Assembly: GCA_003339605.1 (NCBI GenBank)
Contig: QOVW01000076.1
Coordinates: 1 to 40,915, forward strand
Reading direction: 5' to 3'
DNA length: 40,915 nucleotides
DNA from: Spirobacillus cienkowskii
GTDB lineage: Bacteria; Bdellovibrionota_B; Oligoflexia; Silvanigrellales; Silvanigrellaceae
In this document: piece after piece, positions 66 through 40,449 of the stretch
How positions within the stretch are numbered: position 1 is the first letter of the stretch
Layout of the letters: each line of letters begins with the position of its first letter
Program-made: the position numbers and the translations under genes
Notes under the pieces: generated by a model
What the model was told of the DNA's origin: nothing
Database searches by the model: none
Seen by the model: the letters and a program-made list of their open reading frames with translations, nothing else

Positions 66-323
66 TTATGTTAAAAACTTAGTGGACGGCGTATTATTAT
101 CGATTTCGGCAATTATTGTGAAGGCGGAAGTAAATTTGATATCATAAATTGTTTTGTCAATTTCTTTAATAACTTCTGTACTCAATCGATATTCAGGATT
201 AACTAAATTCGTTGCATTGATTGAGTCAAATAGGTTGTTAGCAAATTCTTTTTTTCCGCATGATATTTCAAAGTATATCAATGTAGCAGTAATTGCTAAT
301 CCAATTATAATTTTCTTTTTCAT
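66..323 (-). CDS. Small exported protein, possible lipoprotein, unknown function
   Basis: An 85-residue protein beginning MKKK, followed by a hydrophobic stretch of about 17 residues that ends in ISCGKK. This looks like a signal peptide. The Cys could be a lipidation site, but position -3 is Glu, so the lipobox is poor. The remaining ~60 residues are polar and match no family I recognise. I chose the second ATG (323) because AGG lies seven bases upstream of it; an in-frame ATG four codons earlier (335) has no ribosome site. The gene starts 28 bases after the LysM gene on the same strand, so the two are probably co-transcribed. It probably acts in the periplasm or at a membrane (inference). 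Confidence 0.5.
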   Translation of the reverse strand: MKKKIIIGLAITATLIYFEISCGKKEFANNLFDSINATNLVNPEYRLSTEVIKEIDKTIYDIKFTSAFTIIAEIDNNTPSTKFLT

Positions 324-350
324 TTCATACCTCATAAAAATTAATTACTC

Positions 351-2030: not shown

Positions 2031-2430
2031 ATTTGAATGACTTTTCCTTCTCAATTTTAAGCCAAAATAAAGTTCCAATTGAGAGTGCAATTTTTTTTTA
2101 AAATTAAAAGTCCATGTAAAAAATGGCTCTCAAAAATGCCAGTTTTTACTTTTGGTCATTTGTACTAAAAATTCCTGTTGTGCATACATTAAAGAGAGCG
2201 AGTTAAGACTTATCATTTTAGCATTTTTTGATAGTTTTTGCGCATTCTCTATTTAATTTAAAAAAAAAGCGGTGAAAAAGGGTTAAATTTTTTTAATTTT
2301 TTATATTAAATTAAAAAATACCAAAAATACCTATTTAACATCTTACATTTTTGGTATTTTCGATGTCAAAAATACATTTTTGGTATATTATTTAAACTAA
2401 TCGAGAACGTTTTAATAGGAGTCAAAGTTT
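2031..2430. other. Intergenic region upstream of flbD
   Basis: About 400 very AT-rich bases between divergent genes (DUF177 leftward, flbD rightward). I see no gene in it. The right third contains the repeat cluster listed separately at 2315-2386. AGGAG at about 2418 is the flbD ribosome site. No convincing sigma-70 or sigma-54 promoter could be assigned by eye. Confidence 0.5.
2315..2386. promoter_or_regulatory. Candidate operator cluster upstream of flbD
   Basis: A perfect 14-base inverted repeat joins 2315-2328 (AAAATACCAAAAAT) with 2347-2360. The sequence ACATTTTTGGTAT occurs at 2345-2357 and again, identically, at 2374-2386, 29 bases on. A third palindrome, CAAAAAT-AC-ATTTTTG, spans 2367-2382. 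The shared core is ACCAAAAAT. Three related copies within about 70 bases, ending 45 bases before the flbD start, suggest a regulator binding site array. A hairpin in the flbD mRNA leader is an alternative. No known regulator consensus was matched. Confidence 0.45.
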
Positions 2431-2676
2431 GTGATTAAATTAACAAAGATTGATGGACATGAAATTCATATTAACCATTGTAATATTCAATGGATTGAAA
2501 CACTTCCTGATACAACAATTACAATCTTAAGTGGTGCTAGAATAATTGTTAAAGAGTCGTTAAATGAGGTGTTGCGGCTAATTGATGAAAGAATAAATTA
2601 CGAAAATAGTTTTTGTTTAAACAATGATTTTAATATTTCTCATATTAATAGCGAAAAATTGCCTCACATGACATAA
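2431..2676 (+). CDS. flbD: Flagellar protein FlbD
   Basis: An 81-residue protein whose first ~55 residues fit the FlbD family: MIKLTKIDG at the start, then IQWIETLPDTTITI and the VKES segment followed by a short helix. The start is GTG at 2431 with AGGAG about eight bases upstream. The tail beyond residue 55 is not conserved family sequence as far as I can tell. FlbD is commonly encoded near flagellar hook or motor genes (often before motA/motB); none is seen nearby, so this copy is detached from a flagellar cluster. The molecular role of small FlbD proteins is poorly defined. The downstream exported TPR-like gene starts 59 bases later on the same strand and may be co-transcribed. Confidence 0.8.
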   Translation: MIKLTKIDGHEIHINHCNIQWIETLPDTTITILSGARIIVKESLNEVLRLIDERINYENSFCLNNDFNISHINSEKLPHMT

Positions 2677-2735
2677 TCACGAAATTTGCAAATTTAAATG
2701 GAATTATTTTTGATGCTTTCCGATACTTCATCAAA

Positions 2736-5525
2736 ATGAGGAATGATTCGGTGCATCAAATCTTTTGTTACTTTTTACTTGGATTTATTATTAATTTATT
2801 TATCAATTTTAAGTTTCTGTATGCACAAAGTTGGCCAACTTTGTACACACAAGAAGACATTATTCCGCAAAAAAAGAGTGATCTAAAAGAAATTGAAAAA
2901 ATTAAAACAAAAAATATTAGCAAAATACCAGAAAATAAAATTAGAGAAAAAATATTTAATTCTTATTATTTCATCTTAGATTTTGTAAGTAGCACCAAAG
3001 GTGAATTGCCAAAAAACTGGATAGATTCAAAAAAAGAACCAGAAAAATCTTTAATCTATGGTTTTCCTCCAGAACTTAAAAGACCTTCTGTTCCAATTTA
3101 CTTTCCTGATTTTAATTTAACAAAGCTAGCGTTTTTTATATCTGATGATCCCTACATTTCTAGGCTAAATATGTGCCAAGACTTTTGGATTCAAAATAGA
3201 CTTCAAAAATCATATGATTGCTTTTTCTTTTTGCAAATGGACTTAGCAAAAGACAATGTTCCAATTTCATCGTTGATTCGATTGCAAACAAATATCCTAC
3301 AGGCCTTTCTTTTTTTGCACTTAGCGACAAACGATGTGAATAATTTATATATTTGGAATGCAAAATTTGTGCCGCCTTCTCCCCAAGAATTTACCGAAGG
3401 TGACCATTATGCAATGGCTAGAGTGTTGTTTTCTTATATTGCTACCAAAGTTGATGACAGTACCTATCTTCCAACTAAAAAGAATGCATCTGTTATTAAT
3501 GAAATTTATGATAATATCTATGATTCACCAGTATATTTTAAGGAGACTAAAAAGATAGCTGGAAAAAAAACAAGTATAACCCACTTACAGGAACCTATCG
3601 ATTCTATAAAGTGGATTCAAACAGTTATGCCATTGGTGTATTATAATTCGATGGTGATGAACCAAGGTGTGATGATTTGGGATCGAGCATTTACTTCTGC
3701 GTGGAAATTAGAAAACTACTACGCGAGGTTTGACTACCCAAAAATGCCAGAAGGCTCACCTTTGGTTGTTGAGTCGCCAAGCAAAGTGACTAGCCCAATT
3801 TTTATAGCACCAAGAAATAATACCGACATTTTAAGTTCGGCAGACTTGTTTCGTTCTCTCGCTATGCTCATTGGCAAAGATCCTGGTAAAGCATTTGAAC
3901 ATACATCATCGGGAATTTTCCGGAAAGCCCATCCCGAATTAACCGCGCTGCACTTTCATGTGACAGGGAATACATATTTTGATTTGGATTTGTTACGTTG
4001 GTCTCGTCGGTCGTATTCTTGGGCCGAATTGTATTCAAAGTCATTTTCTGAAAAAGTTCCGAGTAACTTAATCTATGGCGCCGAAAGTGCATTTTGGGCG
4101 GGTCAATATGAAGTTGCAAAAAATGCATATATTCAGTTTTTAACTATAGCTGGAGATAAAGTGTATTCACCTTGGGCAAATTTAAGACTTGCAGAGATTG
4201 AAGAGCTCAATGGAAATCAGACGTTTGCTAAAAATAAATATGAGCAGATTTTAAGAAATTTCGACATGCATCCTGTGGCTGATGAAGCACAGGTAAGATT
4301 ATTTTGTCTTTATGAAAAAAATCTTACTAAAAATGCAAAAATGGTTGAATACAATAAAGTATTAGAAAGAATTAAAACAGCACGCGATGTCCTCAAAAAG
4401 CAGGCAAAAACATGTATGCTTAGAGCTGATTTAACAAAAATGCAAGAAGAGTCATTTAAAGATAACAAAGCTTCTGTTGAAGAAAAATCAAATAAACAAA
4501 TTGAGGCAATTAATAACTTTGCGAAGGAGTTTCCAAATAATGAATTTATGGTGTTATTTACGGATAGAATAAAAGAATTGGAACTATTTAAAGCACCTCT
4601 ATTTGCAGAGCACAACAAATGCATTCAACTCATCGATTTTTTTGTTAAAAATAGAGATTCGTTGAATAATTTATCTCTTAATAATCATCATTTCATTGGT
4701 GGATTGAAATGGGATAATGTTGATCGTTTAAAGGTTCTGCGGTGTGCTGCTTTTGTGGGAAATATTGATGTTTGGAAAGAAATGAGGAGTCATGAAGTCG
4801 GAAAAGATGGCGTGCCTCTGCACTCAACTTTTTATAATCTTTCTCTTAAACCGTCTGTCAGCAATGCATTAAAAGCTTATATGCAATTAAAAAATACGAG
4901 TTCATTATGGATTAATAAGGTTAAAAAAATTGAAAAATCGAGTTTTGAAGTGATTGATCGTGATGATTTTTGGGAAATGCTGACGTTAAGGGAATTACTG
5001 AAATACAATCTAACGATGTCAGAGTCTGCGCAGTCATTGATTGATAATGCAGTTGCAGTTGATATGTTTGCCAACCCTAAACTCATTTATTCTTCAGACA
5101 CATTTTGTTTTTGGATGTTAAAAGCTTCACGTCAATTTAATACAGCAAACTGGGAAAGCATCGCTAAAACAAAAACTAAAAATGAATGGACACTTTTATT
5201 AACTGATGAAAAAATTCAAAAAAATCAACCATGTGAAGCTTCTTTTGCCAAAAAATTAAATACTCATGCATTAACCAATTCTTCTGTTTTTTTAGATACA
5301 TACATCTTGTTGCCGTTTTTAGAAAAGGTAGGGGTTGCAGACGCTTCTGAAGATTGGCTGTGGTATGTGCAGAGAATAGAAAAAAATTTAGGATCAAATA
5401 ATCCTGAAATTATTAATATTTATAAAAATTTATTGGATAAATCCAAAAGTGCTCTTGTCAAGGAAGCGTCGAGATTATGGATACAAAAAAACATTCCTTC
5501 TGAGTCTGAGAAATTATTGTGGTAG
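2736..5525 (+). CDS. Large exported TPR-like protein, unknown function
   Basis: A 929-residue protein with a signal-peptide-like N-terminus (hydrophobic core at about residues 9-28, then LYAQ). It is mostly alpha-helical in character. Around residues 445-525 two adjacent helix pairs have TPR-like spacing (GAESAFWAGQYEVAKNAY; LRLAEIEELNGNQTFAKNKY). The N-terminal third also has short repeat-like helices with DCFFFLQ. No catalytic motif is recognised. Overall form resembles the periplasmic TPR-rich proteins common in Bdellovibrio-type genomes; that comparison is inference. The ATG at 2736 lacks a clear ribosome site, but the signal peptide starts right there, which supports it. It lies after flbD and before two small coupled genes on the same strand, so all four may form one unit. 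Confidence 0.65.
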   Translation: MRNDSVHQIFCYFLLGFIINLFINFKFLYAQSWPTLYTQEDIIPQKKSDLKEIEKIKTKNISKIPENKIREKIFNSYYFILDFVSSTKGELPKNWIDSKKEPEKSLIYGFPPELKRPSVPIYFPDFNLTKLAFFISDDPYISRLNMCQDFWIQNRLQKSYDCFFFLQMDLAKDNVPISSLIRLQTNILQAFLFLHLATNDVNNLYIWNAKFVPPSPQEFTEGDHYAMARVLFSYIATKVDDSTYLPTKKNASVINEIYDNIYDSPVYFKETKKIAGKKTSITHLQEPIDSIKWIQTVMPLVYYNSMVMNQGVMIWDRAFTSAWKLENYYARFDYPKMPEGSPLVVESPSKVTSPIFIAPRNNTDILSSADLFRSLAMLIGKDPGKAFEHTSSGIFRKAHPELTALHFHVTGNTYFDLDLLRWSRRSYSWAELYSKSFSEKVPSNLIYGAESAFWAGQYEVAKNAYIQFLTIAGDKVYSPWANLRLAEIEELNGNQTFAKNKYEQILRNFDMHPVADEAQVRLFCLYEKNLTKNAKMVEYNKVLERIKTARDVLKKQAKTCMLRADLTKMQEESFKDNKASVEEKSNKQIEAINNFAKEFPNNEFMVLFTDRIKELELFKAPLFAEHNKCIQLIDFFVKNRDSLNNLSLNNHHFIGGLKWDNVDRLKVLRCAAFVGNIDVWKEMRSHEVGKDGVPLHSTFYNLSLKPSVSNALKAYMQLKNTSSLWINKVKKIEKSSFEVIDRDDFWEMLTLRELLKYNLTMSESAQSLIDNAVAVDMFANPKLIYSSDTFCFWMLKASRQFNTANWESIAKTKTKNEWTLLLTDEKIQKNQPCEASFAKKLNTHALTNSSVFLDTYILLPFLEKVGVADASEDWLWYVQRIEKNLGSNNPEIINIYKNLLDKSKSALVKEASRLWIQKNIPSESEKLLW

Positions 5526-5559
5526 TATAATTGTTAACATAGCATTCATTGAGGTGTGC

Positions 5560-5868
5560 ATGGGTGATTTGATTGAGTTCTTGAAGAAAAAGCAACAACG
5601 AAGCAAAAAAAAGCAAACAGCTTCATCGAAAAAGCCACCAGATGTTCAATCAATTAGGTTATGGCGTTTTTCTATGGAAATTGATGACTTAATTAAAAAA
5701 GGAGTTGTGCATGATTCTTTATCTCCAGACGAAATTGCTGCTGTGCTTTCACACAGATTAGGAACCTTGATATCTTGTTGCGATCAACCAATAGAATTAA
5801 CTAGATTTTGTAATGATATTATTGAAAGATTAAATTTACCAAAACCAAAAACAGGTGAGCCTGCATGA
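5560..5868 (+). CDS. Small basic protein, unknown function
   Basis: A 102-residue cytoplasmic protein with a Lys-rich N-terminal region (about residues 8-24, KKKQQRSKKKQ) followed by a predicted helical domain (LWRFSMEIDDLIKKG, then LSPDEIAAVLSHRLG). I recognise no family. A longer frame opens at 5449 inside the preceding gene, but the ATG at 5560 has GAGGTG four to eight bases upstream and is preferred. It begins 35 bases after the exported TPR-like gene. Its stop overlaps the next start by four bases (ATGA at 5865), so translation of the two is probably coupled and the products may work together. Confidence 0.55.
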   Translation: MGDLIEFLKKKQQRSKKKQTASSKKPPDVQSIRLWRFSMEIDDLIKKGVVHDSLSPDEIAAVLSHRLGTLISCCDQPIELTRFCNDIIERLNLPKPKTGEPA

Positions 5869-6356
5869 CCAATCCATTAACCTTTGAGTGGAAAAAAGAC
5901 AATTATGTTGCAATTAGTGGAATAGTTGACGAAAATGCGGATTTTAGTGAATTGTATTTAAAAAAATTTGAAGTGTTATTTATTGATCTTAAAAAAATAT
6001 TAAGAATGAATAGTAGCGGAGTTAGAAATTGGGTGATTGCCCTCAATAAATTAAAAGATGTAGAGCTTCATTACATCAATTGCTCCTTTCCGGTTGTTGA
6101 TCAATTATCGATGGTTCCTGAGTTTTTAACAAAAAAAACCTTTGTAGAATCATTTGATGCGCGGTATGTTTGTGAAAACTGCAACACGTCATATGTTTTT
6201 ACATTAATAGTCGGTTTTGATATTCAGGCTGGTTTGCCCCAATATTTAGATGGTCCAGATAAATTTTGTTCAAATTGTAAAGCCAAGCTTGAATTTGATC
6301 ACAATCCTGATAGTTATTTATATTTTTTAAGTAACCTAAAAAACACAAAAAAATAA
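5865..6356 (+). CDS. STAS-like domain protein with C-terminal zinc ribbon
   Basis: A 163-residue protein. Residues about 1-95 look like a STAS-type fold: a strand (FEVLFIDLKKI) followed by MNSSGVRNWV, where STAS proteins carry the conserved Ser/Gly turn that is phosphorylated in anti-sigma antagonists. The C-terminal part has two Cys pairs, CENC at about residue 104 and CSNC at about 138, spaced like a zinc ribbon. The combination suggests a non-canonical STAS regulator or scaffold rather than a classical SpoIIAA. No anti-sigma kinase is adjacent. It is translationally coupled to the preceding small basic protein. Domain assignment is by eye. Confidence 0.5.
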   Translation: MTNPLTFEWKKDNYVAISGIVDENADFSELYLKKFEVLFIDLKKILRMNSSGVRNWVIALNKLKDVELHYINCSFPVVDQLSMVPEFLTKKTFVESFDARYVCENCNTSYVFTLIVGFDIQAGLPQYLDGPDKFCSNCKAKLEFDHNPDSYLYFLSNLKNTKK

Positions 6357-38713: not shown

Positions 38714-38919
38714 TGAATTAGGCTCATCATTCATTTTATAATTCAGTTACTTTATGTCATTTTCTCCTACTGTAAAGGCGGGAGGGTTTATAGATGCTAA
38801 GAAGGGTTATGGCCGATTGCATTAAAGAGCGCCACCCCGATTGCAAATTAAGGGGACCATTTTTTTATAGCCAGCGATTCGTCTTTTTTGCAAAGCTCTT
38901 AGGCAAGGAGGTGAGCCTA

Positions 38920-40449
38920 ATGAGAAGAAAAGGACGGGTTAGTATGGAAAAGTTGGGGCAAATCCTGCAAATGCGGGAAAAAAGGCGTTCCATTAGGACA
39001 ATTGCACGATGTCTTCATATGTCGAGAAAGACAGTCAAGAAATATCTTCAAGAAAATTTGCATAAAGAATGTCTAAACAAAAACACTCAATATCAAACTC
39101 ATTCTCCAAATGACAAACTTAATCCAGACGATATACCTAACTGGGCTCAAGAAATTGATATTGAACTCGTATTAAAAGAATTGGGTAAGGGAATTAGCTA
39201 TAAGGTTCTTTATGAAGAACTCAAACCCACCATTAGTTATTTTAGCTTTTGGAGATTTTTTAGAAAACTATACGGCTTAAAAAGGCAAAACATTTCAATA
39301 AGAATAATCCATAAACCAGGAGAAAAAACTTATGTTGATTTTTGTGATGGTATCCAGATTTTTGATGAACTAACTGGTGAGGTTATTAAAACTCATTTAT
39401 TTGTCGCAACACTGCCTTTTAGTCAATACACTTTTGCAGAGTTTACATTAGATCAAAAGCTAGAAAATTTTATTGAATTGCATGATAAAACTTGGGAGTT
39501 TTTTGGAGGGGTAACAGATTACACTGTGCCTGATAATTTAAAAAGTGCTGTAAGCAAAGCACATCGCTATGACCCTGATTGCAATAAATCATTTTGTGAA
39601 TATGCAAACCATGTAGGTTTTGCAGTTTTACCAGCAAGGCCATATAAACCAAGAGATAAAGCTTCTGTTGAAGGCAATATTCATCATATTCAAAAATCTT
39701 TTTTTCAGCGTGTCAGAAATAAAAAGTATCAAACTTTATTTGAACTCAATCAGGATTTTAAAATATTTTTGAAAGAATTCAATAACTCTATTATGAAAGA
39801 CTATGGTGTATCAAGGAAAGAAAGATTTAGTACAGAAGAAGCTTATTTAAAGGCTGTTCCTGCGGAAAAATTTCAATTGTTTAATTGGAAAATAGCAAAG
39901 GTTCATCCTGATTGCCATATTCAAGTGGAAAAAAATTTTTACTCAGTTCCATTTCATTTTGCTGGCAAAGAAGTTAGAGTTAGATATTCAAAGAATTATT
40001 TAGAAGTTTTTTCTTCAAATGGAGAGCTTTTATCTTCACATAAAAAAATAAAAGGAATAGGAAAGTCATCAACCGATCCTGGTCATTGGCCTCAAGAAAA
40101 ACAACGTTACCTCAGCTTTGATATCAATAAAGCAAAATTGGAGGCTAAAAAAATAGGAGAAAACACGTATAAGTTGATTGATTTTTTATTTTCACAAAGT
40201 CACCCTTTGCGCTTTTTACGTCCTGTACAAGGGATGTTAAGACTAGTGAATTCAAATAAATTTAACAAAGAAGATATGGAATATGCAGCAAAAATGGCGT
40301 TTTCTCATAAAATTTACCGTCTCTCATATATAACTGATTGTTGTATTTTTCATGTAAATGGAGGGGCAAAGCCAAGAGCAACGCAAGCGCCAATCCGTAC
40401 ACTAAACACAATCCATCTTCATCAAAGCAAAGAAAAGATATTCAATTAA
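38920..40449 (+). CDS. istA: IS21-family transposase IstA
   Basis: A 509-residue DDE transposase. The N-terminal helix-turn-helix (SIRTIARCLHMSRKTVKKYL, residues about 23-42) precedes the rve-type catalytic core. The acidic triad appears intact: Asp in GEKTYVDFCDG, Asp in TVPDNLKSAV, and Glu in DKASVEGNIHH. A beta domain and a basic C-terminus follow. It binds and joins the element ends, and needs IstB for strand transfer. Start 38920 is set by AAGGAGGTGA about four bases upstream, a near-ideal ribosome site; the frame extends to 38794 but that head has no family sequence. istB starts 15 bases later. Confidence 0.92.
   Translation: MRRKGRVSMEKLGQILQMREKRRSIRTIARCLHMSRKTVKKYLQENLHKECLNKNTQYQTHSPNDKLNPDDIPNWAQEIDIELVLKELGKGISYKVLYEELKPTISYFSFWRFFRKLYGLKRQNISIRIIHKPGEKTYVDFCDGIQIFDELTGEVIKTHLFVATLPFSQYTFAEFTLDQKLENFIELHDKTWEFFGGVTDYTVPDNLKSAVSKAHRYDPDCNKSFCEYANHVGFAVLPARPYKPRDKASVEGNIHHIQKSFFQRVRNKKYQTLFELNQDFKIFLKEFNNSIMKDYGVSRKERFSTEEAYLKAVPAEKFQLFNWKIAKVHPDCHIQVEKNFYSVPFHFAGKEVRVRYSKNYLEVFSSNGELLSSHKKIKGIGKSSTDPGHWPQEKQRYLSFDINKAKLEAKKIGENTYKLIDFLFSQSHPLRFLRPVQGMLRLVNSNKFNKEDMEYAAKMAFSHKIYRLSYITDCCIFHVNGGAKPRATQAPIRTLNTIHLHQSKEKIFN

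Follow-up and report, generated by a model that had tools for sequence, protein, structure and literature searches.

We propose that the second gene of a four-gene run in 'Candidatus Spirobacillus cienkowskii', a bacterium that infects Daphnia, encodes a periplasmic flagellar stator scaffold of the PflA/MotC/MotK type. The run lies near the start of the window, by which we mean the whole 40,915-nucleotide stretch of contig QOVW01000076.1 that was analysed, and it comprises flbD, a large gene for a predicted exported tetratricopeptide repeat (TPR) protein, a small gene, and a gene for a protein with a STAS domain and a zinc ribbon (Table 1). This reading of the large protein, in which flbD and the TPR gene form the core and the other two genes are later additions to it, one from a house-keeping locus and one from a family of signalling proteins, is in our judgement the probable one.

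A preliminary description made from the sequence alone had placed these four genes in this order on the + strand and had suggested that they form a motility-linked or envelope module of an undescribed kind. The coordinates, the gaps of 59 nucleotides (flbD to the large gene) and 34 nucleotides (large to small gene) and the four-nucleotide ATGA overlap of the small and STAS genes bear out that layout. Likewise, its remark that only flbD belongs to a recognised family agrees with a search by hmmscan, in which FlbD, at 64.3 bits with a cut-off of 24.7, was the only one of the four proteins to score above a Pfam threshold. The neighbourhood comparison that it recommended showed that five further genomes of the genus keep this gene order, with gaps of similar length; the run is also present, 99.4% identical, in the complete genome of the same species (G056), and is thus not a product of chance. 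The two intergenic gaps contain no intrinsic terminators and no listed sigma-70-like sites, although the promoter scan is uninformative, because promoter-like counts there were close to the shuffled background.

Comparison with 56 related genomes shows that the large protein is a member of a family that extends across the class and for which Pfam has no model. Identity is 51-62% in the well-assembled genomes of the genus, with much weaker matches across the class. A phylum-wide profile search of genomes at least 90% complete returned members of this class only, and matches were strong in every genome that has flbD. A 21-member alignment (A1), in which the six residues listed in Table 1 and C791 are invariant in all rows, and an hhalign comparison of the window's family with the remaining members (459 columns, probability 99.8, E-value 2e-28) place both subfamilies in one family, and Pfam TPR models score above cut-off in a distant orthologue (L128). 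Within the genomes searched by profile, flbD and the TPR protein occur together in 34, are both missing from five, and are never found one without the other (Fisher p 1.7e-6). In 30 of the 34 the two genes share a contig and lie no more than 4.2 kb apart; in the remaining four they are on different contigs. The four genomes that have neither flbD nor FliM also have neither the TPR protein nor a MotA_N match. One genome (G032) has FliM but not flbD, MotA or the TPR protein, which may reflect an assembly gap at the locus; FliM is in any case the noisier marker, since four genomes with the flbD-TPR pair gave no FliM match. FlbD is encoded once in the window's genome, and the control for that search gave a match in Bacillus subtilis.

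The gene order differs between families. In families f5, f6, f7 and part of f4 the order is flbD-motA-motB-TPR (for example at L125, L131, L132 and L134), and the next gene usually codes for a membrane protein that carries a methyl-accepting domain. Family f10 and part of f4 have no motAB at this place, the TPR gene coming straight after flbD, and the window's genus has the TPR gene, the small gene and the STAS gene, in that order, directly behind flbD. Because other families read flbD-motA-motB-TPR, the run in the window resembles a stator operon from which motAB is missing. The earlier remark that FlbD lies away from motor genes thus holds for the window's genus and for part of the class, but not for the families in which motA and motB follow flbD. 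The suggested link to motility is strongly supported for flbD and the TPR protein by their co-occurrence, their linkage and the motAB found between them elsewhere. In the window's genome, motA and motB occupy a separate locus (contig C68 of G000; L178:9742-12334), where they are followed by a gene for a 285-residue coiled-coil lipoprotein and then by a tsaD-like gene.

The signal peptide and TPR repeats read from the sequence in the preliminary description were backed by hydropathy, profiles and models. We predict that the large protein is exported to the periplasm: its hydropathy peaks at residues 9-27, no comparable stretch follows residue 40, and the N-terminal hydrophobic helix, followed by A-Q, is conserved in the genus. 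Structure prediction, also recommended at the outset, gave an AlphaFold model (predicted local distance difference test, pLDDT, 85.6; predicted TM-score, pTM, 0.67) that is a TPR superhelix. It begins with the N-terminal hydrophobic helix, passes through a mixed N-terminal region that contains short strands, and has helical hairpins from residue 139 to residue 928. When this model was compared with the entire PDB by Foldseek, 9hmf_K, a flagellar periplasmic scaffold of Campylobacter jejuni, ranked third (E-value 7.9e-6, 820 columns, TM-scores 0.25/0.29) and was the only bacterial flagellar protein among the top 50 matches. Since generic TPR superhelices score alike, this match supports the kind of protein and not its descent.

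Several observations weigh against a stator scaffold. The TM-scores to 9hmf_K are low, and the TPR proteins Ctr9, SKI3 and IFT score like it; moreover, we take chain K of 9hmf to be PflA solely from its length, as its 773 residues fit mature PflA. The PflA-type N-terminal AMIN/beta-sandwich domain is absent from the model, where only short strands are found at residues 124-126, 265-276 and 343-357. A profile search of PDB sequences returned CpoB, LapB, APC3 and designed TPR proteins but no PflA, and membership in PflA by sequence was rejected on that ground; PflA and its published candidates are themselves not conserved in sequence (PMC11870540). The periplasmic location is a prediction. Finally, the TPR gene is encoded with stator genes at L125, L131, L132 and L134 and not in the window's own genus, where motAB is sited elsewhere, which leaves its co-expression with the stator a supposition.

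These points leave room for a periplasmic flagellar accessory that is not a stator scaffold, such as an assembly factor, a component of the P- or L-ring or of a basal disk, or an anchor to peptidoglycan or the outer membrane. Co-occurrence and linkage with flbD indicate a flagellar role only, the TPR gene does without intervening motAB in f10 and part of f4, and the closest curated profile to the large protein is that of YbgF/CpoB, a TPR protein of the envelope that belongs to the Tol-Pal system. However, the motor genes found between flbD and the TPR gene are motA and motB, and the sole flagellar structural match is a stator scaffold; we regard an accessory of this sort as unlikely.

A stator scaffold of the PflA/MotC/MotK type would also have a candidate partner in the window's genome. 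Directly after fliG-fliH-fliI-fliJ lies a gene for an exported protein of 192 residues, which comprises a signal sequence, a long charged stretch of helix-like or coiled-coil character, and a C-terminal MgtE_N-like domain (29.6 bits, cut-off 25.9). This is the architecture reported for MotE/FlgY (PMC13023049), the E-ring protein bound by PflA, MotC and MotK (PMC13023049, PMC10954123). An equivalent gene follows fliJ in another genome (G019). FliM and a FliL-FliM-FliN-FliP-type cluster were also seen here, and a 2025 study reports that the species has all common structural flagellar genes (PMC12321486).

Based on these data we can outline how the system might work. The flbD and large genes would be the core of a flagellar stator operon, here without motAB. 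The large protein would be exported and fold into a long periplasmic TPR superhelix, which could form a radial spoke or collar docking on an E-ring of the MotE/FlgY type around the MS-ring. Through contacts with the E-ring and MotB, it would position or anchor MotAB stator units, with a possible effect on torque; this is the part played by PflA in Campylobacter and by MotC/MotK in alphaproteobacteria. On the cytoplasmic side, FlbD would work together with the stator. The small and STAS/zinc genes would have joined the operon within the Silvanigrella-like family, and the STAS protein is probably a cytoplasmic switch of the SpoIIAA/RsbV type.

The large protein resembles PflA, which forms periplasmic spokes in Campylobacter and Helicobacter, in its predicted export, its TPR superhelix of similar size, its flagellar association, a possible whole-length structural similarity, and the presence of an FlgY-like gene in the genome. 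It differs in having no detectable sequence similarity to PflA and no N-terminal AMIN/beta-sandwich domain in the model, and in the coupling of its gene to flbD(-motAB); no PflB was found, although no search was aimed at one. When set by description beside MotC of Sinorhizobium and MotK of Cereibacter, which are TPR proteins of the periplasm with ties to MotE and the stator, it is likewise TPR-rich and predicted to be exported, its gene adjoins motB in related families, and a MotE-like gene is present; in contrast, the AMIN domain of MotK is missing from our model and the gene described here is linked to flbD. In Bdellovibrio, a 12-fold inner-membrane ring has been seen and a PflA-like TPR protein proposed for it (Chaban et al., 2018; PMC5758724). 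That protein, B. bacteriovorus WP_011165745.1, shares by description the signal sequence, the long TPR stretch and a flagellar operon. Across phyla, TPR proteins encoded near flagellar genes have been taken as PflA candidates (2025 preprint; PMC11870540). Because of these two proposals the kind of scaffold is already known, and the suggestion of an undescribed module does not stand; what is added is a family in this class, its tie to flbD, and its location away from large flagellar clusters.

That location matters because flagellar TPR scaffolds lack sequence conservation and have been sought by their nearness to large flagellar clusters. The family of the Silvanigrella group could be missed by such searches, since only flbD adjoins it. 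Through its link to flbD, the likely stator scaffold can be traced by sequence in a whole class of bacteria, some of which are cultured, and the as yet unidentified inner-membrane ring of Bdellovibrio-like motors is opened to test. For FlbD itself, we found no solved relative in the PDB. SwrD (YlzI) of B. subtilis, a member of the same Pfam family, is linked to motor power, which it raises according to Hall (2018, as cited in PMC9195833). Here, however, the protein is coupled to a TPR scaffold gene, in a host with an outer membrane and periplasm. The mode of action of FlbD/SwrD is not understood, and the class offers a case in which it is found in fixed company with a scaffold gene.

The small protein is most likely a house-keeping protein recruited into the operon. 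It had been described as basic, which its isoelectric point of 9.1 bears out, although the basic residues are confined to the first third. Its gene is present in one copy in 43 of the 56 genomes, and D42, H65, R66, G68, L70 and C84 are invariant in the family alignment, which was made without L118 owing to a frame error there. A profile search of the PDB gave nothing credible. In other families the gene lies near engB, mutL, miaA and/or lpd (L135, L136, L137, L142, L143 and L144). It is also present in three genomes (G014, G025 and G037) that have neither flbD nor FliM, which rules it out as a dedicated flagellar gene.

In the fourth protein, both profile and fold point to a STAS domain like that of anti-sigma antagonists, and behind it lies a ribbon with two CxxC motifs, as had been read from the sequence. 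Its profile matched the anti-sigma factor antagonist TM1442 in the PDB (E-value 7.1e-5), and its AlphaFold model (pLDDT 91.6) matched SpoIIAA by Foldseek (probability 1.0, E-value 4.4e-3). The Pfam STAS model PF01740 gave no match to the window copy, and the best paralogue (22.1 bits) fell under the cut-off of 22.6. Like SpoIIAA and RsbV, the window copy combines the STAS fold with a serine at the switch position (N-S-S51-G), a place taken by C, L, T, V or M in the majority of paralogues; it differs in having N for D in the DSSG motif, an added C-terminal zinc ribbon, no adjoining anti-sigma kinase, and a score under the Pfam cut-off. It is one paralogue of a signalling family, with four copies in the window's genome and up to nine in others. 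A contig search for relatives of the window's STAS protein gave a single match, to a member of the paralogous family. Among the neighbours of other copies are response regulators and a PAS-GGDEF protein, and in seven or eight loci from three families (f4, f5 and f6) a paralogue lies directly upstream of cheA-cheW, a pairing that we did not meet in the literature searched. These loci are L177:6472-9730, L187, L188, L189, L192, L194, L195 and L197; L192 has a short cheA-like gene, with no cheW seen beside it.

Whether these two genes belong functionally with flbD and the TPR gene bears on the claim of a single module. An ancient four-gene module is ruled out by the siting of the small and STAS genes elsewhere outside the Silvanigrella-like family; it is the flbD-TPR pair that is the old core, which the others joined only within that family. 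All four genes could still act as one module at present, with the small and STAS/zinc proteins regulating the motor, for example by way of phosphorylation that switches FlbD or the stator. The order kept in the genus, the presence of the small gene behind the TPR gene in two further genera, the serine retained by the window copy, and the paralogues beside cheA-cheW would fit such a role. However, the small gene has homes beside engB, mutL, miaA and lpd and persists in genomes without flbD and FliM, the tree places the window STAS copy as sister to an f10 group (support 0.95) and outside the cheA-linked clade, and no gene for an anti-sigma kinase or phosphatase is adjacent to the STAS/zinc gene at this locus. 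We consider one working module rather improbable, and a part for the two proteins in motility is at most something we infer. A bolder version, which we hold to be quite unlikely, is that the STAS/zinc proteins are a class-wide family of cytoplasmic switches dedicated to motility and chemotaxis, with one branch working with CheA-CheW and the serine-keeping branch of this operon controlling stator engagement through FlbD, so as to link a partner-switching signal to the PflA-type scaffold.

There is about an even chance that only flbD and the TPR gene are flagellar and that rearrangement placed the last two genes behind them with no functional link, which is compatible with the TPR protein being a stator scaffold. 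Both genes have other homes in relatives, and the run continues on the same strand into genes of lysine biosynthesis. Yet the order is kept across the genus, and partly across genera, although identity of the large protein within the genus is only 50-61%, and the last two genes are joined by their ATGA overlap.

Table 1. Positions of the genes and other features discussed, in the window unless a locus is named.
Feature	Position	Strand	Remarks
Three AATACCAAAAAT-type motif copies (one inverted, two direct)	2315..2389	+	Upstream of flbD; possible operator/promoter region
flbD	2431..2676	+	81 residues, GTG start; FlbD/SwrD family (PF06289)
Large exported TPR protein, predicted periplasmic stator scaffold (PflA/MotC/MotK-like)	2736..5525	+	929 residues
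Predicted signal peptide, residues 1-31 (hydrophobic helix 3-28)	2736..2828	+	Hydropathy and AlphaFold model
Best conserved TPR core, residues 450-560	4083..4415	+	Alignment A1; E450, W454, R484, A486, C524 and C560 invariant
Small protein, lysine-rich N-terminus, conserved HRLG core	5560..5868	+	102 residues; class-wide single-copy family
STAS plus zinc-ribbon protein	5865..6356	+	163 residues; profile against PDB, model, Foldseek
Zinc-ribbon cysteines C103/C106 and C135/C138	6171..6278	+	Alignment A3; C103 invariant, C135 nearly so
Exported 192-residue protein with MgtE_N-like domain, candidate MotE/FlgY E-ring protein	L218:10129-10707		Directly after fliG-fliH-fliI-fliJ
Metallopeptidase-like gene between flbD and TPR gene	L121:8880-10712, L122:12293-14122, L123:12953-14731, L118:8283-9983		Sister genera

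The run has no natural end where it was first drawn, since an aminotransferase gene and dapD continue in the same direction 77 nucleotides after the STAS gene. At the other end, the AATACCAAAAAT-type motif cluster upstream of flbD is a possible operator or promoter region, judging by the sequence. The 14-mer TACATTTTTGGTAT occurs twice there and nowhere else in the window, where 0.08 occurrences would be expected.

In sister genera, flbD and the TPR gene are separated by a gene for a secreted metallopeptidase-like protein, which is about 600 residues long and carries an HELGH motif and a proprotein-convertase P-domain; this gene was not found in the window's genome. The dapD gene is intact in the window, whereas the complete genome has it spread across two reading frames (L179:4917-5842), so a sequencing indel in one of them is likely. 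A tandem run of related lipoproteins beginning MKKKIIIGLA...CGKK adjoins the locus in the complete genome (L179:13155-16832; window 66-335), and the window's contig breaks inside it. A gene for an IS21-type (IstA-like) transposase is found near the contig end, at 38794-40449 of the window.

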